Source of the DNA: Candidatus Magasanikbacteria bacterium CG_4_10_14_0_2_um_filter_37_12
Lineage (GTDB): Bacteria; Patescibacteriota; Patescibacteriia; Magasanikbacterales; UBA922
Reading direction: 5' to 3'
Assembly: GCA_002793015.1 (NCBI GenBank)
Contig: PFPK01000018.1
Coordinates: forward strand, 1-37,180
DNA length: 37,180 bases
Shown here: positions 2,418 to 9,890 of the stretch, in pieces
Numbering within the stretch: position 1 is the stretch's first letter
How the letters are laid out: each line of letters opens with the position of its first letter
Notes under the pieces: model-generated
Told to the model about the DNA's origin: nothing
The model's input: only the letters and a program-made list of their open reading frames with translations
The model's database searches: none
Position numbers and translations under genes: made by a program

Positions 2418-2674
2418 GAAAATATTTTCACTCGAACAAATTGATAAAAGAGACTTGAAAATACGCTAAAGCCACGTTGCACTCTCACTCCGCTATCGCT
2501 CCGTTCGGCTCGCCTAACTATCCATATCCTCGTCAAGCAATACCTGTGGACAAAACTCAATAAAACAAAGAATGAAATGAGGCAGTGTTTTTTTTGAATA
2601 CAACAAAACAGATACAGACTGTGTGGCGAGAGTTTGTAAAAATATGAGATGATTTTTTTTTACACACCCAAAAC

Positions 2675-2703
2675 TTGACAACAATTCCCAATTAATCTAA
2701 AAT
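2675..2703 (+). promoter_or_regulatory. sigma70-type promoter TTGACA-17 nt-TAAAAT
   Basis: TTGACA at 2675-2680, TAAAAT at 2698-2703, 17-nt spacer, just upstream of the riboswitch. Confidence 0.7.
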
Positions 2704-2721
2704 ACAAAAATTAACAACCAA

Positions 2722-2824
2722 ATCATATATATTACGGAAGTGAGGTAGCTATTCCTCCACTGTGCCGCAACGGTAAAGCCTCGATATCAATCTGGGGACA
2801 AGTCCGGTCTGTGTATATGTGAAC
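2722..2824 (+). promoter_or_regulatory. cobalamin-type riboswitch aptamer
   Basis: Core cGGAAgtgaGGTagctATTCCtccactgtGCCGCAACGGTAAagcc...AGTCCGG matches the cobalamin (B12-box) consensus. The closing helix is catatata.../...tgtatatg. Confidence 0.8.
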
Positions 2825-2866
2825 ATCTCGAGCAGGAACATAAGTAAATTGTCTTTACTTTTTGCC

Positions 2867-2900
2867 ATCTTCCTAGCTCTCTGGAAGATTTTTTTATTTT
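2867..2900 (+). terminator. intrinsic terminator / riboswitch expression platform
   Basis: ATCTTCC (2867-2873) / GGAAGAT (2883-2889), a perfect 7-bp stem, followed by TTTTTTATTTTT. It lies between the aptamer and the ATG at 2910. Confidence 0.75.
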
Positions 2901-2909
2901 TAAAAATCT

Positions 2910-3572
2910 ATGCAAAACACAAAATCAAAAATTCTTATCTTAGGCCTCCTACTTATCGTCGGAGCTGGATGTAATCAGATTCCTGCGAAAGAAAACCAGA
3001 CCAAAGACGACAACCCAACACTAATTGAAATAAATACCACAACACAGAACTCGAAAAGTAGTGAACAAATGCCCACTCCAGCTGAACTACCAAAAAATGC
3101 ACAAAAAAAAGAAGAGACAGACATGGTAATAGTCCAAGTAGAACAAGAAAAAAAATCACAAAACCCTCAAGGAGTAATGACCCTGCCAGAACCAAAAGAT
3201 GACAGTGCCGAAGAAATTATAAAAAAAGAAGAATCAACTGACCAAAAAATTGAAGAAGCTGAGACAGAGAATACTCTCGAAGCGACATTGTCAACAGACG
3301 ACAAAGAATATCAATTACAAATGCCAGAAGGAAGTAGTGTCTATGACTTGATGACAAAGGCTTCCCTGAGTACTGATTTTACATTTTCTGCAAATAACTA
3401 TCCTGGCATTGGATTCTTCATCAAAGAAATTAATGGAGTAAAAAATAACAAACAGGCTGGTCTCTACTGGATTTACTATCTAGAAGGAAAACCAGCAAAA
3501 GTAGGAGTATCTGATTATATTTTAAAGCCAGGAGACAAAATAGCATGGAAATACGAAGTACCAAATTTTTAG
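2910..3572 (+). CDS. DUF4430 / transcobalamin C-terminal-like lipoprotein
   Basis: Lipobox LLLIVGAGC. The C-terminal YQLQMPEGSSVYDLMTKASL...GIGFFIKEINGVKNNKQAGLYWIYYLEGKPAKVGVSDYILKPGDKIAWKYE is characteristic of DUF4430. Confidence 0.8.
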   Translation: MQNTKSKILILGLLLIVGAGCNQIPAKENQTKDDNPTLIEINTTTQNSKSSEQMPTPAELPKNAQKKEETDMVIVQVEQEKKSQNPQGVMTLPEPKDDSAEEIIKKEESTDQKIEEAETENTLEATLSTDDKEYQLQMPEGSSVYDLMTKASLSTDFTFSANNYPGIGFFIKEINGVKNNKQAGLYWIYYLEGKPAKVGVSDYILKPGDKIAWKYEVPNF

Positions 3573-3660
3573 ACAATAAATAACATATAATGGCTATTAA
3601 CTAAAGAGCTGTTCCTCCACTATGTCTGGAGATTATAATCAGTGTAATCCTTAATTTAAT

Positions 3661-6075
3661 ATGAACAGTACCAAAAAACTATTCCGCCTGTCTGTCATCA
3701 TCTTACTATTGTTGTCTGGTTTTACAAAGCCTATTTCAGTCCATGCAGAGGAAGATGTTTCTGATACAGAAGTATCTGTACAAACTACCGAAACAAAAAA
3801 TGTACCCGAAGAACAGACAGTAGAGGATACAGGCGAAAGCAATCTGGAGGAAGATACTGAAAATCAAGAAGAAACTCAAGAAAAACAAACTTCTGAAAAA
3901 AATGCAGATGAAGAAACAACGGGAGAAGAGACCGATGAGCCTACGGAAGATGAAAACGAAGTAGAAAAAACCGTAACCATCAAGCTACGCTACAGTGATC
4001 AGTTCATGTTTGATGATCTTGTTGTCTTACCAACTTCCACTACTTTTACCGATAACAACGGAGACGAATATACCACCACATCGACCAGCGTCCTCACAGC
4101 CCTCATTAGTGCCGACAAGACTAGTGATGAATTTGATATTACCAATCTAGAATATTATCCAGCATACAGTAGCTTCTATTTGCACTGTCTAGCATTCAAT
4201 AATGCTGAGAACACCAAAGCCTGTAACAACTGGAACTATGTAGTTGATGGAATTTACCCCAGCAATATTGGTATGGATAGCTATAACCTGGCAGGTGGAG
4301 AAACTGTTTATATTTATTTCAATAATTCTTGGAAAATCAGTGCCAGCACTTCTACCTTTGATTTGGGAGCTACCACCACATTTTATACATGGCAATACGA
4401 TTATGCTGATCCAGAAAACGAATGGCTCAGTGATCCAGAAGATAAAATAAATATCTCTGTCAACAATCCAAATTCTACTGGCTGGTGGGATGCGACTACG
4501 ATGATAGCAACAACTACCAGTGACAACTCTGGATCTGTAGATTATCTTTTTACCAGCACGGGTACTTTTTATACGGATATTACAGCTGACGACTATTCCA
4601 AATGGAGTAGCCCGATCACTATCAATGTCACATCACCAACTAGCACAGAAGCCACAACTCCGACATCTACGCCCACCCAAGGTGGTGGTGATAGCACACC
4701 ACAATTCAATTCCATCAGTAGTGCAAAAATTAATGCTACAGTCGAAAAAATTCTTAATTATATAAAATTACAACAATCAAATACAGGAGAAATAATTGAT
4801 GGCGGTACATCGGATTGGTTAATGATGAGTTTTGGAGCCCATTGGGACAACAGCAGTAAGATAAAAAATGGTGACACTTCCCTGCTCAGTTTTGTGCTAG
4901 GCTATGATTTTGATGGCTACACAGATCTCAATCTTTGTGCTGGATACCCAAGGCATATCATGGCTCTACTAGCCGGCGGAGTCAACACAGACCATACAAA
5001 AGTAAATGAGTTAAAATCAAAAATGTTGACCGAGTGTTATACAGACAATTTATATGGTCAAGATGGTATAAATGACGACGTCTTTGCCCTTATGGCGCTC
5101 CTAGAGTTCGATTATAGCAGTAATGACCAGATTGTCTCAGATCTAGTAAAAACCATCGTCAATGACCAAACAGGAGATGGGGCTTTCACTTGGGTTGGCT
5201 GGCCTGGAGCAGATATAACTGGGGCGGCGATCAATGCTCTTAGCTCTGCTAGAAACCATGGTATTACAGTTGATCAATCTGTTCTAGATAATGCCAAAAA
5301 TTATCTCAAGCAAAACCAGCTAGCCGACGGTGGCTGGGGCTATGGCACTTCGGATATTCTCACCACTAGCTGGGCCATGATGGGGATCAATGCTCTCGAC
5401 GAATCACAGTCTGACTGGTTCAATAGTGAGGGGAAAAATCCCTGGTATCCGATGACAGAACGACTAAATGATGCAGTTTATTATGAATCTGCCTGGACAC
5501 CTGGTACAGTAGATTGGTTTGCGATGAAGCATGCTGTCCCTGCTCTCCTGAAAAGTAGTTGGCCGATTGTCAAAACATTTGTTGATAATAATTCCTCAAC
5601 TACATATCCTATTTCAACAGGTTGTACAAATTGTGATTCTAAAACCCCAACTACCACAGAAGAAATCATTATAGAAGAAGTGTCCACTTCCACAATTGAT
5701 ATTATATTGAAAACCCCTACCACGACACCGTCTTCAACGATTGATATTGTTAAACCAAAAACCACTGAGATAGAAAAAAAAAATAATGAGCCAGAAGAAG
5801 AAATCATTAAAAATATTCCGCCAGCACAACTAATTCGTCCATATGTGCCTCCCAAAAAAGTCTTGGGTGAAAAAATTGACAATTCTAATCAAGATAAAAA
5901 TAAACAAGATAAAAATAAAGTAGAACAAAAAACTGTCTTGGACGACAGTCTAAAACAAAATGGCATGGCAGAAGAAAGTCTTCAAAATGCCAAAAAACCA
6001 TTCCTAAAAAAAGTTATGGACTTCTTCTACCACATGATTTCCTCTGGTTTCAAATTTTTGATGAACCTGCTATAA
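3661..6075 (+). CDS. secreted transcobalamin/intrinsic-factor-like protein: acidic low-complexity N-region, DUF4430-like domain, Thr/Pro linker, alpha/alpha-toroid (prenyltransferase/squalene-cyclase-like repeats), basic/amphipathic C-tail
   Basis: Signal peptide-like MNSTKKLFRLSVIILLLLSGFTKPISVHA. WNYVVDGIYPSNIGMDSYNLAGGETVYIYF (DUF4430-like). Toroid repeats QTGDGAFTWVGWPGADITGAAINALSSA and KNYLKQNQLADGGWGYGTSDILTTSWAMMGINAL. Confidence 0.75.
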   Translation: MNSTKKLFRLSVIILLLLSGFTKPISVHAEEDVSDTEVSVQTTETKNVPEEQTVEDTGESNLEEDTENQEETQEKQTSEKNADEETTGEETDEPTEDENEVEKTVTIKLRYSDQFMFDDLVVLPTSTTFTDNNGDEYTTTSTSVLTALISADKTSDEFDITNLEYYPAYSSFYLHCLAFNNAENTKACNNWNYVVDGIYPSNIGMDSYNLAGGETVYIYFNNSWKISASTSTFDLGATTTFYTWQYDYADPENEWLSDPEDKINISVNNPNSTGWWDATTMIATTTSDNSGSVDYLFTSTGTFYTDITADDYSKWSSPITINVTSPTSTEATTPTSTPTQGGGDSTPQFNSISSAKINATVEKILNYIKLQQSNTGEIIDGGTSDWLMMSFGAHWDNSSKIKNGDTSLLSFVLGYDFDGYTDLNLCAGYPRHIMALLAGGVNTDHTKVNELKSKMLTECYTDNLYGQDGINDDVFALMALLEFDYSSNDQIVSDLVKTIVNDQTGDGAFTWVGWPGADITGAAINALSSARNHGITVDQSVLDNAKNYLKQNQLADGGWGYGTSDILTTSWAMMGINALDESQSDWFNSEGKNPWYPMTERLNDAVYYESAWTPGTVDWFAMKHAVPALLKSSWPIVKTFVDNNSSTTYPISTGCTNCDSKTPTTTEEIIIEEVSTSTIDIILKTPTTTPSSTIDIVKPKTTEIEKKNNEPEEEIIKNIPPAQLIRPYVPPKKVLGEKIDNSNQDKNKQDKNKVEQKTVLDDSLKQNGMAEESLQNAKKPFLKKVMDFFYHMISSGFKFLMNLL

Positions 6076-6183
6076 TGAATCATAATCACCCGTCATAACG
6101 AATGATATTAATTTTTTTTTTCTAAGCGAAACTTAAAAAATATAAAAAAATACTACTAGGTTGATTCAATAATATAAATTAAT

Positions 6184-6564
6184 ATGCTCAAAAAATATAG
6201 CAAAATTGGAATATTATTGGTTATTTTTTTAATCCTCGGTGCAGGATGCAATGTCTTACCTAAAAAGACCACCCATACTTACAATATTCAAGTCACCAAA
6301 TCCACAACCTACACAGACAAACATCAAATAGAAGAAGAAAATGAAATTATGCCAGTAGACCAACTGATGAAAAAAGTAGACCCACAACTAGAAACACAAA
6401 TAAAAAATGGGCAAGAAAAAATGACGAAACTAAATGGAGTAATTGCTACCATGAGCAAAGAATGGAAACTGTACGTCAATAATATTTCCCCAGAATTTAC
6501 TAACCTTGCCGACTTGATGGTCCGTGCTTCTGAACAAATTGAATGGCGCTATGAAGAAAAATAA
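6184..6564 (+). CDS. small lipoprotein, divergent DUF4430-like
   Basis: Lipobox LILGAGC. WKLYVNNISPEFTNLADLMVRASEQIEWRYEEK resembles the WIYYLEG...GDKIAWKYE ending of the 2910 ORF. Confidence 0.6.
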   Translation: MLKKYSKIGILLVIFLILGAGCNVLPKKTTHTYNIQVTKSTTYTDKHQIEEENEIMPVDQLMKKVDPQLETQIKNGQEKMTKLNGVIATMSKEWKLYVNNISPEFTNLADLMVRASEQIEWRYEEK

Positions 6565-6623
6565 TAATTGAGCTAGTGGCAGTTGTACTTATTTTAAATA
6601 GCGAAATCAATGTTAATAAAATT

Positions 6624-7160
6624 ATGAACAAAAAAACTCAAATCTCTGTAATTCTGATCCTCATCGTGCTTGGTTTTACAGCCAGACTTTTTCCACACCC
6701 AGCCAACTTTGTTCCTATTGGGGCTATTGCAATCTTTGGAGCGCTGTATCTACCCCGTAAAATTGCTCTCCTCGTTCCCCTGCTAACTATGTTTGTGAGT
6801 GATATTTTTATCGGATTTTATAGCTGGCCCATGATGGCCTCTGTTTATCTGGGATTTGCTCTCATGGGATTGATTGGCCTCCAAGTTAGAAAAAACAAAA
6901 AGTTTAGTACACTTCTCAGCGGGACACTACTCGGTTCTTTCTTATTTTTTCTACTTACTAATACTGCTGTTTGGGCTTTTGGAACAATGTATACTATGGA
7001 CATTTCGGGTTTGTTTCAGAGCTACTACATGGCTCTGCCATTCTTCCGCAACAGTATTTTAGGTGATTTATTTTACACTGGTGTTTTGGTTGGTGCTGTG
7101 GAGGCCTTACAGTATTATTATCAAATCAAGAATATAAAGCAAAAGATTTCAAATTTGTAA
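6624..7160 (+). CDS. DUF6580-family membrane protein, ECF-transporter S-component-like
   Basis: Multi-TM with FTARLFPHPANFVPIGAIAIFGALYLPRKIALLVPLLTMFVSDIFIGFY...AVWAFGTMY...YYMALPFFRNSILGDLFYTGVLVG. The ATG at 6624 (MNKKTQ) is preferred over 6576. Confidence 0.7.
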   Translation: MNKKTQISVILILIVLGFTARLFPHPANFVPIGAIAIFGALYLPRKIALLVPLLTMFVSDIFIGFYSWPMMASVYLGFALMGLIGLQVRKNKKFSTLLSGTLLGSFLFFLLTNTAVWAFGTMYTMDISGLFQSYYMALPFFRNSILGDLFYTGVLVGAVEALQYYYQIKNIKQKISNL

Positions 7161-7214
7161 AATGGTTGTTTATCAAAACTCCATAACCTTTCTGGACATT
7201 GAAGCTAACTAAAC

Positions 7215-7250
7215 AAAAAAACTCGCTTAATAATCTAAGCGAGTTTTTTT
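7215..7250. terminator. intrinsic (probably bidirectional) terminator
   Basis: AAAAAA-ACTCGCTTA-ataatc-TAAGCGAGT-TTTTTT between convergent genes. Confidence 0.85.
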
Positions 7251-7313
7251 AAAAATTTTGTATTCAACAACCTCACATTCCTAATTCATTATCCCACATC
7301 CAACACCAAAAAA

Positions 7314-9026: not shown

Positions 9027-9413
9027 CTAACTATGCAATGAAGTACTTTTAGAGATTGTTGAAAAAAATTCCTTTACCAACAATATATCTTGATTTATTT
9101 TATTGATCAACTCATCTTTATGGTAAATCTTTTCAACAGAAGCCACTTGTTGAATTGGATCAACCTCTAGAAAACTACCATAAAAATCAGGACCATCATA
9201 ATCAACCAAATAAATCTCCACTCTCCAAGCAGGCATATTTTTAATTACCAAGGCCGCTTTGTATACTTTCTTTTCAAGACTACACCGTGCCGCATAGACA
9301 CCTGGACCTAGCTTGACTTCTTTTTTTGTGCAATCCAAATTAGCTGTAGGAAAACCATATAACTTTCCCATTTTATCTCCGCCAACTACAATTCCACCAA
9401 ACATAGGTGTCAA
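9027..9413 (-). CDS. stand-alone riboflavin kinase
   Basis: GGIVVGGDKMGKLYGFPTANLD...GVYAARC...GPDFYGSFLEV is typical of the RibF C-terminal domain. The FAD-synthetase domain is absent. Confidence 0.8.
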   Translation of the reverse strand: MTPMFGGIVVGGDKMGKLYGFPTANLDCTKKEVKLGPGVYAARCSLEKKVYKAALVIKNMPAWRVEIYLVDYDGPDFYGSFLEVDPIQQVASVEKIYHKDELINKINQDILLVKEFFSTISKSTSLHS

Positions 9414-9428
9414 AAAATTACAATATAC

Positions 9429-9890
9429 TTAATGTTTTAGCATTTTGGCCATTTCGATTGCAGCCTTCCCCCACTCATAGCCACTATTCTTCGACTCACT
9501 GGATCGATCTATGGCTTGTTGCTCTGTCAAACAAGTCAAAACACCATAAATAATAGGAATATCGTTGTCTATGTTCAATCTCATAATCGCCTTAGTGACA
9601 GAATCAGCAATATATTCAAAATGCATAGTCTCACCTTTGATAAGAGAGCCTAAACAAATTATAACATCTATATTTTTTTCTCGAATCAATTTGCTAACAA
9701 CAAACGGTATTTCAAAAGCACCAGGAACCTGATACACCGAAATATTTTTCTCCTCTACACCTGTCTCAAATAATGCCTCCTTGCATCTACCAAGTAAAGC
9801 ATCCGTAATATGGTTATTCCAACGACTGACCACTATTCCAATCCTAAAAGATGAACCATCCAGCTTATCAAAAACAATTCCCTTGCTCAT
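9429..9890 (-). CDS. ribH: 6,7-dimethyl-8-ribityllumazine synthase
   Basis: GIVVSRWNNHITDALL...VPGAFEIPFVVSKL...GSLIKGETMHFEYIADSVTKAIM...GVLTCLTEQQAIDR...KAAIEMAKML. Confidence 0.9.
   Translation of the reverse strand: MSKGIVFDKLDGSSFRIGIVVSRWNNHITDALLGRCKEALFETGVEEKNISVYQVPGAFEIPFVVSKLIREKNIDVIICLGSLIKGETMHFEYIADSVTKAIMRLNIDNDIPIIYGVLTCLTEQQAIDRSSESKNSGYEWGKAAIEMAKMLKH

Follow-up and report, generated by a model that had tools for sequence, protein, structure and literature searches.

A candidate B12-scavenging cassette in Patescibacteria that pairs a divergent riboswitch with DUF4430 proteins and an S-component-like membrane protein

Among the described routes for cobalamin (vitamin B12), the energy-coupling factor (ECF) transporter ECF-CbrT of Lactobacillus delbrueckii (PDB 6FNP) carries cobalamin (PMC5997447), and BtuM is a B12 S-component-like protein that functions without an ECF module, for which an adenosyltransferase has been proposed as the trap (PMC6072759). 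Here we describe four genes behind a divergent adenosylcobalamin (AdoCbl) riboswitch on contig PFPK01000018.1 of a Candidatus Magasanikbacteria genome (870,869 bases, 97% complete). The window analysed is the entire contig of 37,180 bases, and among named taxa it is closest to Ca. Magasanikbacteria and other Patescibacteria. Comparative evidence strongly supports the idea that this cassette serves B12 capture and uptake, and we consider it quite likely to be a B12-repressed operon for cobalamin scavenging in which a DUF6580 membrane protein probably acts as a solitary carrier. Searches of open-licence papers on DUF6580, on DUF4430 with cobalamin, and on Patescibacteria or Magasanikbacteria with B12 returned no account of such a system.

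Layout and conservation of the cassette

On the + strand, the riboswitch is followed by a DUF4430 protein, a secreted DUF4430-like/toroid protein, a short DUF4430 protein and the DUF6580 membrane protein. Every part named in the original prediction, that is, promoter, aptamer, terminator, four same-strand genes and a closing terminator, is present:

2675..2703, + strand: sigma-70-like promoter, TTGACA-17-TAAAAT, with 11/12 consensus matches (consensus only)
2709..2826, + strand: AdoCbl-class aptamer of a divergent patescibacterial subtype (RF01482 and covariation in alignment A4)
2827..2837, + strand: conserved box CTCGAGCAGGA (CCCGAGCAGGA in relatives), the proposed antiterminator strand, conserved 3' of the aptamer
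2867..2896, + strand: intrinsic terminator hairpin ATCTTCC..GGAAGAT with T-run, before gene 1 (sequence and fold)
2910..3572, + strand: gene 1, surface-anchored DUF4430 protein of 220 amino acids (aa), probable lipoprotein (VGAGC; PF14478 E 2.3e-16)
3661..6075, + strand: gene 2, secreted protein of 804 aa with a DUF4430-like domain, an immunoglobulin (Ig)-like beta region, an alpha/alpha toroid and a low-complexity C-terminal tail (SQHop_cyclase_C, PF13243, E 7.5e-7)
6184..6564, + strand: gene 3, short DUF4430-related probable lipoprotein of 126 aa, optional in relatives (Pfam DUF4430 0.07, marginal; 2.3e-16 with an iterated profile from relatives)
6624..7160, + strand: gene 4, S-component-like DUF6580 membrane protein of 178 aa (PF20221 E 1.2e-47; alternative GTG start at 6576)
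7214..7251, + strand (listed on the - strand): terminal hairpin with a 17-pair stem that closes the gene set, probably a bidirectional terminator

Promoter-like matches are no more frequent across the region than expected by chance. The order of riboswitch, DUF4430, toroid, optional short DUF4430 and DUF6580 is kept across the family. Some loci (in G035, G052, Woykebacteria and others) carry DUF4430 and DUF6580 without the toroid, several of them behind a riboswitch; as many relatives have this pair only, we take DUF4430 and DUF6580 as the core and the toroid as a dispensable elaboration.

Our main set comprised 59 genomes, that of the window (G000) counted, and a wider set comprised 192 Patescibacteria; genome-wide statements rest on family searches. 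DUF6580 and DUF4430 occur in the identical 32 of the 59 genomes. In the wider set, DUF6580 is found in 51 genomes, DUF4430 in 53 and both in 48 (Fisher 1e-35, a value that overstates independence because the genomes are related). DUF6580 genes also turn up on contigs that carry the labels Alphaproteobacteria, Bacteroidetes and Ignavibacteriales (L179, L182 and L184), with no DUF4430 found nearby; this may reflect misbinning or a broader distribution.

The AdoCbl riboswitch and its expression platform

A sensitive scan of 2600-3000 (400 bases) gave a full-length match to RF01482 at 2709-2863 (model 1-149) with 34.7 bits (E 8.1e-5). Because this score is below the gathering score of 50, a default Rfam scan shows no riboswitch. 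Despite that, we regard the divergent AdoCbl riboswitch as confirmed on comparative sequence grounds, namely its copies in relatives, their covariation and a conserved expression platform, and the cobalamin-type aptamer of the original prediction is upheld. The RF00174 search of the window genome returned zero matches, the element belonging to the AdoCbl model, of which it is the sole match in its genome.

AdoCbl matches occur in 24 of the 59 genomes, and copies over the gathering threshold of RF01482 in nine; 21 of the 24 also have the cassette (20 cassette-bearing relatives and the window genome). The remaining three, which lack it, involve a contig end (G016), a contamination-like contig (G026) and a weak match (G039). 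In G026, a Patescibacteria genome, a single contamination-like contig of 7.5 kb (L189, G026:C10) carries cobU, cobT, btuF, btuC, btuD, a cobalamin riboswitch, a TonB receptor and cobS.

When the 24 copies are aligned (alignment A4), two-sided (compensatory) changes are seen in 17 of 23 pairs and 92% of cells are paired. The covariation score is 0.537, whereas shuffles give 0.19 and sliding the partners gives no more than 0.18; none of 500 shuffles reaches the observed value. The covariance model built from this alignment places the window's riboswitch, itself one of the training sequences, at 2709-2839. In 54 of 80 named-genome loci (L157 among them at E 0.013), it finds a same-strand riboswitch upstream of DUF6580; many of these loci belong to genomes used to build the model, and the survey was extended mainly by more distant ones. 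The proportion is 48 of 57 when at least 4.5 kb of upstream sequence is available, and the conservation of riboswitch with genes that had been anticipated is thus borne out in relatives.

Two loci, L180 and L181, have two riboswitches each, arranged in L180 as riboswitch, DUF6580, riboswitch, DUF4430, toroid. Apart from the main cassette, G044, G054 and G056 each have an extra stand-alone AdoCbl riboswitch (L185, L186 and L187) ahead of a DUF4430 gene whose product bears a twin-arginine-like signal. In the window, ctgttcctccactatg at 3605-3632, between genes 1 and 2, looks like the aptamer core ctattcctccactgtg and may be a remnant or a chance likeness.

The terminator hairpin (2867-2889, then T7; minimum free energy -6.9 kcal/mol, z -1.9) was missed by a pattern scan because its loop is 9 bases long. 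Over 42 loci, the complementarity of the box to the stretch before the T-run has a mean score of 13.3 compared to 10.4 when shuffled (Wilcoxon p 5e-7). The searched stretch stops at the first T-run and so does not reach the true terminator arm in some loci, that of the window among them. In L141, the box is CCCGCGCAGGA and its counterpart in the terminator arm is TCTGCGCGG, both sides having changed to match. By eye, GAGCAGGAA (2830-2838) in the window is pairable with TTCCTAGCTC (2870-2879) if one base is left bulged, a pairing that would preclude the terminator hairpin. The arrangement of box and terminator fits a transcriptional OFF switch, its direction being our reading of the pairings: at low AdoCbl, the box would pair with the terminator arm and allow read-through transcription, and with AdoCbl bound, the aptamer would hold the box and let the terminator form.

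Candidate capture proteins, the membrane protein and B12 use

The two DUF4430 lipoproteins that had been proposed keep their family and are less secure as lipoproteins. PF14478 is found in 30 of 30 aligned gene-1 orthologues, and gene 3 joins the family through the iterated profile; the lipoboxes of the window's two candidates (GAGC) are non-canonical, and in most orthologues of gene 1 an N-terminal membrane anchor takes the place of a lipobox. The profile of these orthologues detects gastric intrinsic factor (3kq4, 2pmv) through its beta domain (E 1.9e-4). The top-listed match of the profile, 8prj, consists of short repeated matches and was set aside as no credible relative.

The AlphaFold model of gene 2 (residues 98-664) has a predicted local distance difference test (pLDDT) score of 88.6, and Foldseek relates it to squalene cyclases, to complement/alpha-2-macroglobulin (A2M) proteins containing a thioester domain (TED) and to transcobalamin (2v3n, E 5.6e-5). 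In 28 aligned gene-2 proteins, SQHop_cyclase_C is found in 25, DUF4430 in 13 and PF01122, the eukaryotic cobalamin-binding family, in two (best E 2.5e-4), with no PF01122 match in the window protein. In sequence, the toroid is closest to squalene-hopene cyclases, and the link to eukaryotic cobalamin-binding proteins is weak. In a weak local alignment, the DxDD region of squalene-hopene cyclase corresponds to GADI in the window protein, with the first and last Asp missing. The secreted toroid of the original prediction is retained, and its likeness to transcobalamin is tentative.

Among the PDB sequences, a family profile for DUF6580 (alignment A2) matched only 6fnp and 4hzu up to an E value of 10, and not BtuM; the match to the CbrT chain, 6fnp_A, has an E value of 4.6e-4. 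The AlphaFold model reaches a pLDDT of 94.9, and its credible Foldseek matches are ECF S-components (best E 0.03). R21, H25 and N28 are invariant, in and beside the predicted first loop, and the alignment holds no invariant Cys. As a working hypothesis, H25 could be a cobalt ligand.

EcfT, searched for with Pfam PF02361, is over the cut-off in none of the 59 genomes, that of the window included, and in 10 of the 14 control genomes used as a positive check. Only one of the 192 Patescibacteria has it, and that genome lacks DUF6580. As none of the surveyed genomes with DUF6580 has EcfT over the cut-off, we consider a standard ECF transporter unlikely, and DUF6580 probably works as a solitary S-component-like carrier; most likely, it acts alone in the manner of BtuM, downstream of surface B12 capture. 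The S-component-like importer that had been predicted thus has a profile match to CbrT and an S-component fold but apparently stands outside any ECF transporter, the genome search for a T component having come back empty. The window genome likewise shows no BtuC-type permease. Candidates in relatives were rejected, as the weak matches (17-41 bits) resemble other ATP-binding cassette (ABC) permeases and the single strong match comes from the contamination-like contig of G026.

The search for a B12-dependent enzyme in the window genome was successful, with a vitamin B12-dependent class II ribonucleotide reductase (RNR) that matches NrdJ_Z (TIGR02504) at 567 bits against a cut-off of 399.95 and NF005122 at 1209 against 859. 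We called class II RNR from NrdJ_Z matches above 450 bits, a cut-off chosen after a second match group (roughly 360-402 bits) was seen on a different model span. On this basis, strong NrdJ is present in 27 of 32 cassette genomes compared to 7 of 27 others (p 7e-6). In the second group, the alpha subunits of G001 (no cassette) and G045 (cassette) are classified as class I NrdA, NrdB adjoins the RNR genes of G045 and G013, and the rest are assumed to be class I from their similar scores. Another 27-genome count is that of the PduO-type adenosyltransferase; each genome that has it also has NrdJ.

Elsewhere in the window, an upstream membrane protein (1578-2355) is seemingly split over two frames (open reading frames (ORFs) 1578-1961 and 1648-2355), possibly by a frameshift. 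This reduced genome also has, at 9027-9890 on the - strand, lumazine synthase beside a riboflavin kinase C-terminal-like ORF.

Readings of the cassette and comparison with known systems

In the mechanism that we propose, DUF4430 and DUF4430-toroid proteins, either anchored at the surface or secreted, would capture a corrinoid extracellularly. They would hand it over to DUF6580, a small membrane homologue of the B12 S-component CbrT. Net uptake would be driven by intracellular trapping on class II RNR and, in most relatives, also by adenosylation. The corrinoid as protein ligand, its handover, and the direction and energetics of transport are what we infer from the comparisons above. The capture-and-handover cassette of the original prediction is upheld in part: the covarying riboswitch conserved with the genes, the profile links to intrinsic factor and CbrT and the class II RNR speak for it, but the toroid is not required and DUF6580 apparently belongs to no ECF transporter.

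Several observations weigh against this reading. CbrT without its ECF module does not support growth (PMC5997447), so that a solitary role is not automatic for relatives of CbrT, and for DUF6580 we infer it. The profile link between DUF6580 and CbrT is modest (23 bits), 6fnp is not among the Foldseek matches listed for the DUF6580 model, and a divergent EcfT could evade the Pfam model. By fold, the toroid is closer to terpene cyclases and to complement/A2M TED proteins than to transcobalamin. Five genomes have the cassette without strong NrdJ (G004, G045, G047, G050 and G052), of which G047 and G052 carry B12-binding domains, and seven have NrdJ without the cassette. Finally, no PduO-type adenosyltransferase turned up in the window genome.

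The alternatives differ in what they retain of B12 uptake. We think it rather unlikely that the operon imports a related corrinoid such as cobinamide or pseudocobalamin in place of cobalamin. The transport of cobinamide by ECF-CbrT (PMC5997447) and the divergent riboswitch subtype, which scores under the Rfam cut-off, speak for this alternative. Against it, intrinsic factor, which of all solved structures is closest to the DUF4430 proteins, is strict for complete cobalamin. It is improbable that DUF6580 takes up B12 as a true ECF S-component, together with ABC ATPases and an EcfT too divergent to be recognised, their genes lying at other loci: its relation by profile and fold to CbrT and other S-components and the dependence of CbrT on its module (PMC5997447) would suit such a transporter, but a model that recovers EcfT in most controls finds it in no surveyed genome that has DUF6580. 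Least of all do we expect the toroid to be a secreted terpene cyclase-like enzyme or adhesin unrelated to B12 that rides in the operon. Squalene-hopene cyclases are its top sequence relatives and its fold also resembles complement/A2M TED proteins; against this, the gene-2 protein has a signal peptide and a DUF4430-like domain, an AdoCbl riboswitch lies ahead in most loci, two members match PF01122, and GADI replaces DxDD, albeit in that weak local alignment.

We give about even chances to the wider proposal of an undescribed, Patescibacteria-wide B12 route that would run from transcobalamin-like DUF4430 proteins, with or without the toroid, to an ECF-independent, CbrT-related DUF6580 with H25 as a possible cobalt ligand, and end in trapping by NrdJ and adenosyltransferase. 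Patescibacteria have very small genomes and obtain cofactors from others; if true, the proposal names a B12 route for many of them, explains why the cassette tracks B12-dependent ribonucleotide reductase and assigns functions to two families of unknown function, DUF4430 and DUF6580. It would also suggest a prokaryotic counterpart, on bacterial surface proteins, of the toroid and DUF4430 pairing of human B12 carriers, and make DUF6580 a large new family in which ECF-independent S-component transport becomes testable.

Compared to known systems, the cassette resembles intrinsic factor and transcobalamin in combining a toroid, tentatively likened to theirs, with a DUF4430 beta domain, in the intrinsic factor profile match and, in 2 of 28 toroid members, in PF01122. 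Unlike them, the bacterial toroid protein has the reversed domain order, with DUF4430 first, and an Ig-like region, and the set includes separate surface-anchored DUF4430 proteins, a cell-surface site and a dispensable toroid. The BtuCDF ABC importer, which is frequently under cobalamin riboswitch control, likewise has a capture protein that feeds a membrane B12 importer, whereas the cassette proteins are unrelated to it and BtuC has no match in the window genome. With ECF-CbrT (Lactobacillus delbrueckii; PDB 6FNP, PMC5997447), DUF6580 shares the profile match and the S-component fold, but the DUF6580 genomes surveyed lack EcfT and encode DUF6580 alongside extracellular DUF4430 proteins. BtuM (PMC6072759) is an S-component-like protein in genomes without an ECF module, as DUF6580 is judging by EcfT, with an adenosyltransferase in many hosts; it is mostly proteobacterial and uses an invariant Cys ligand, whereas DUF6580 has invariant R21, H25 and N28 and capture proteins encoded beside its gene.
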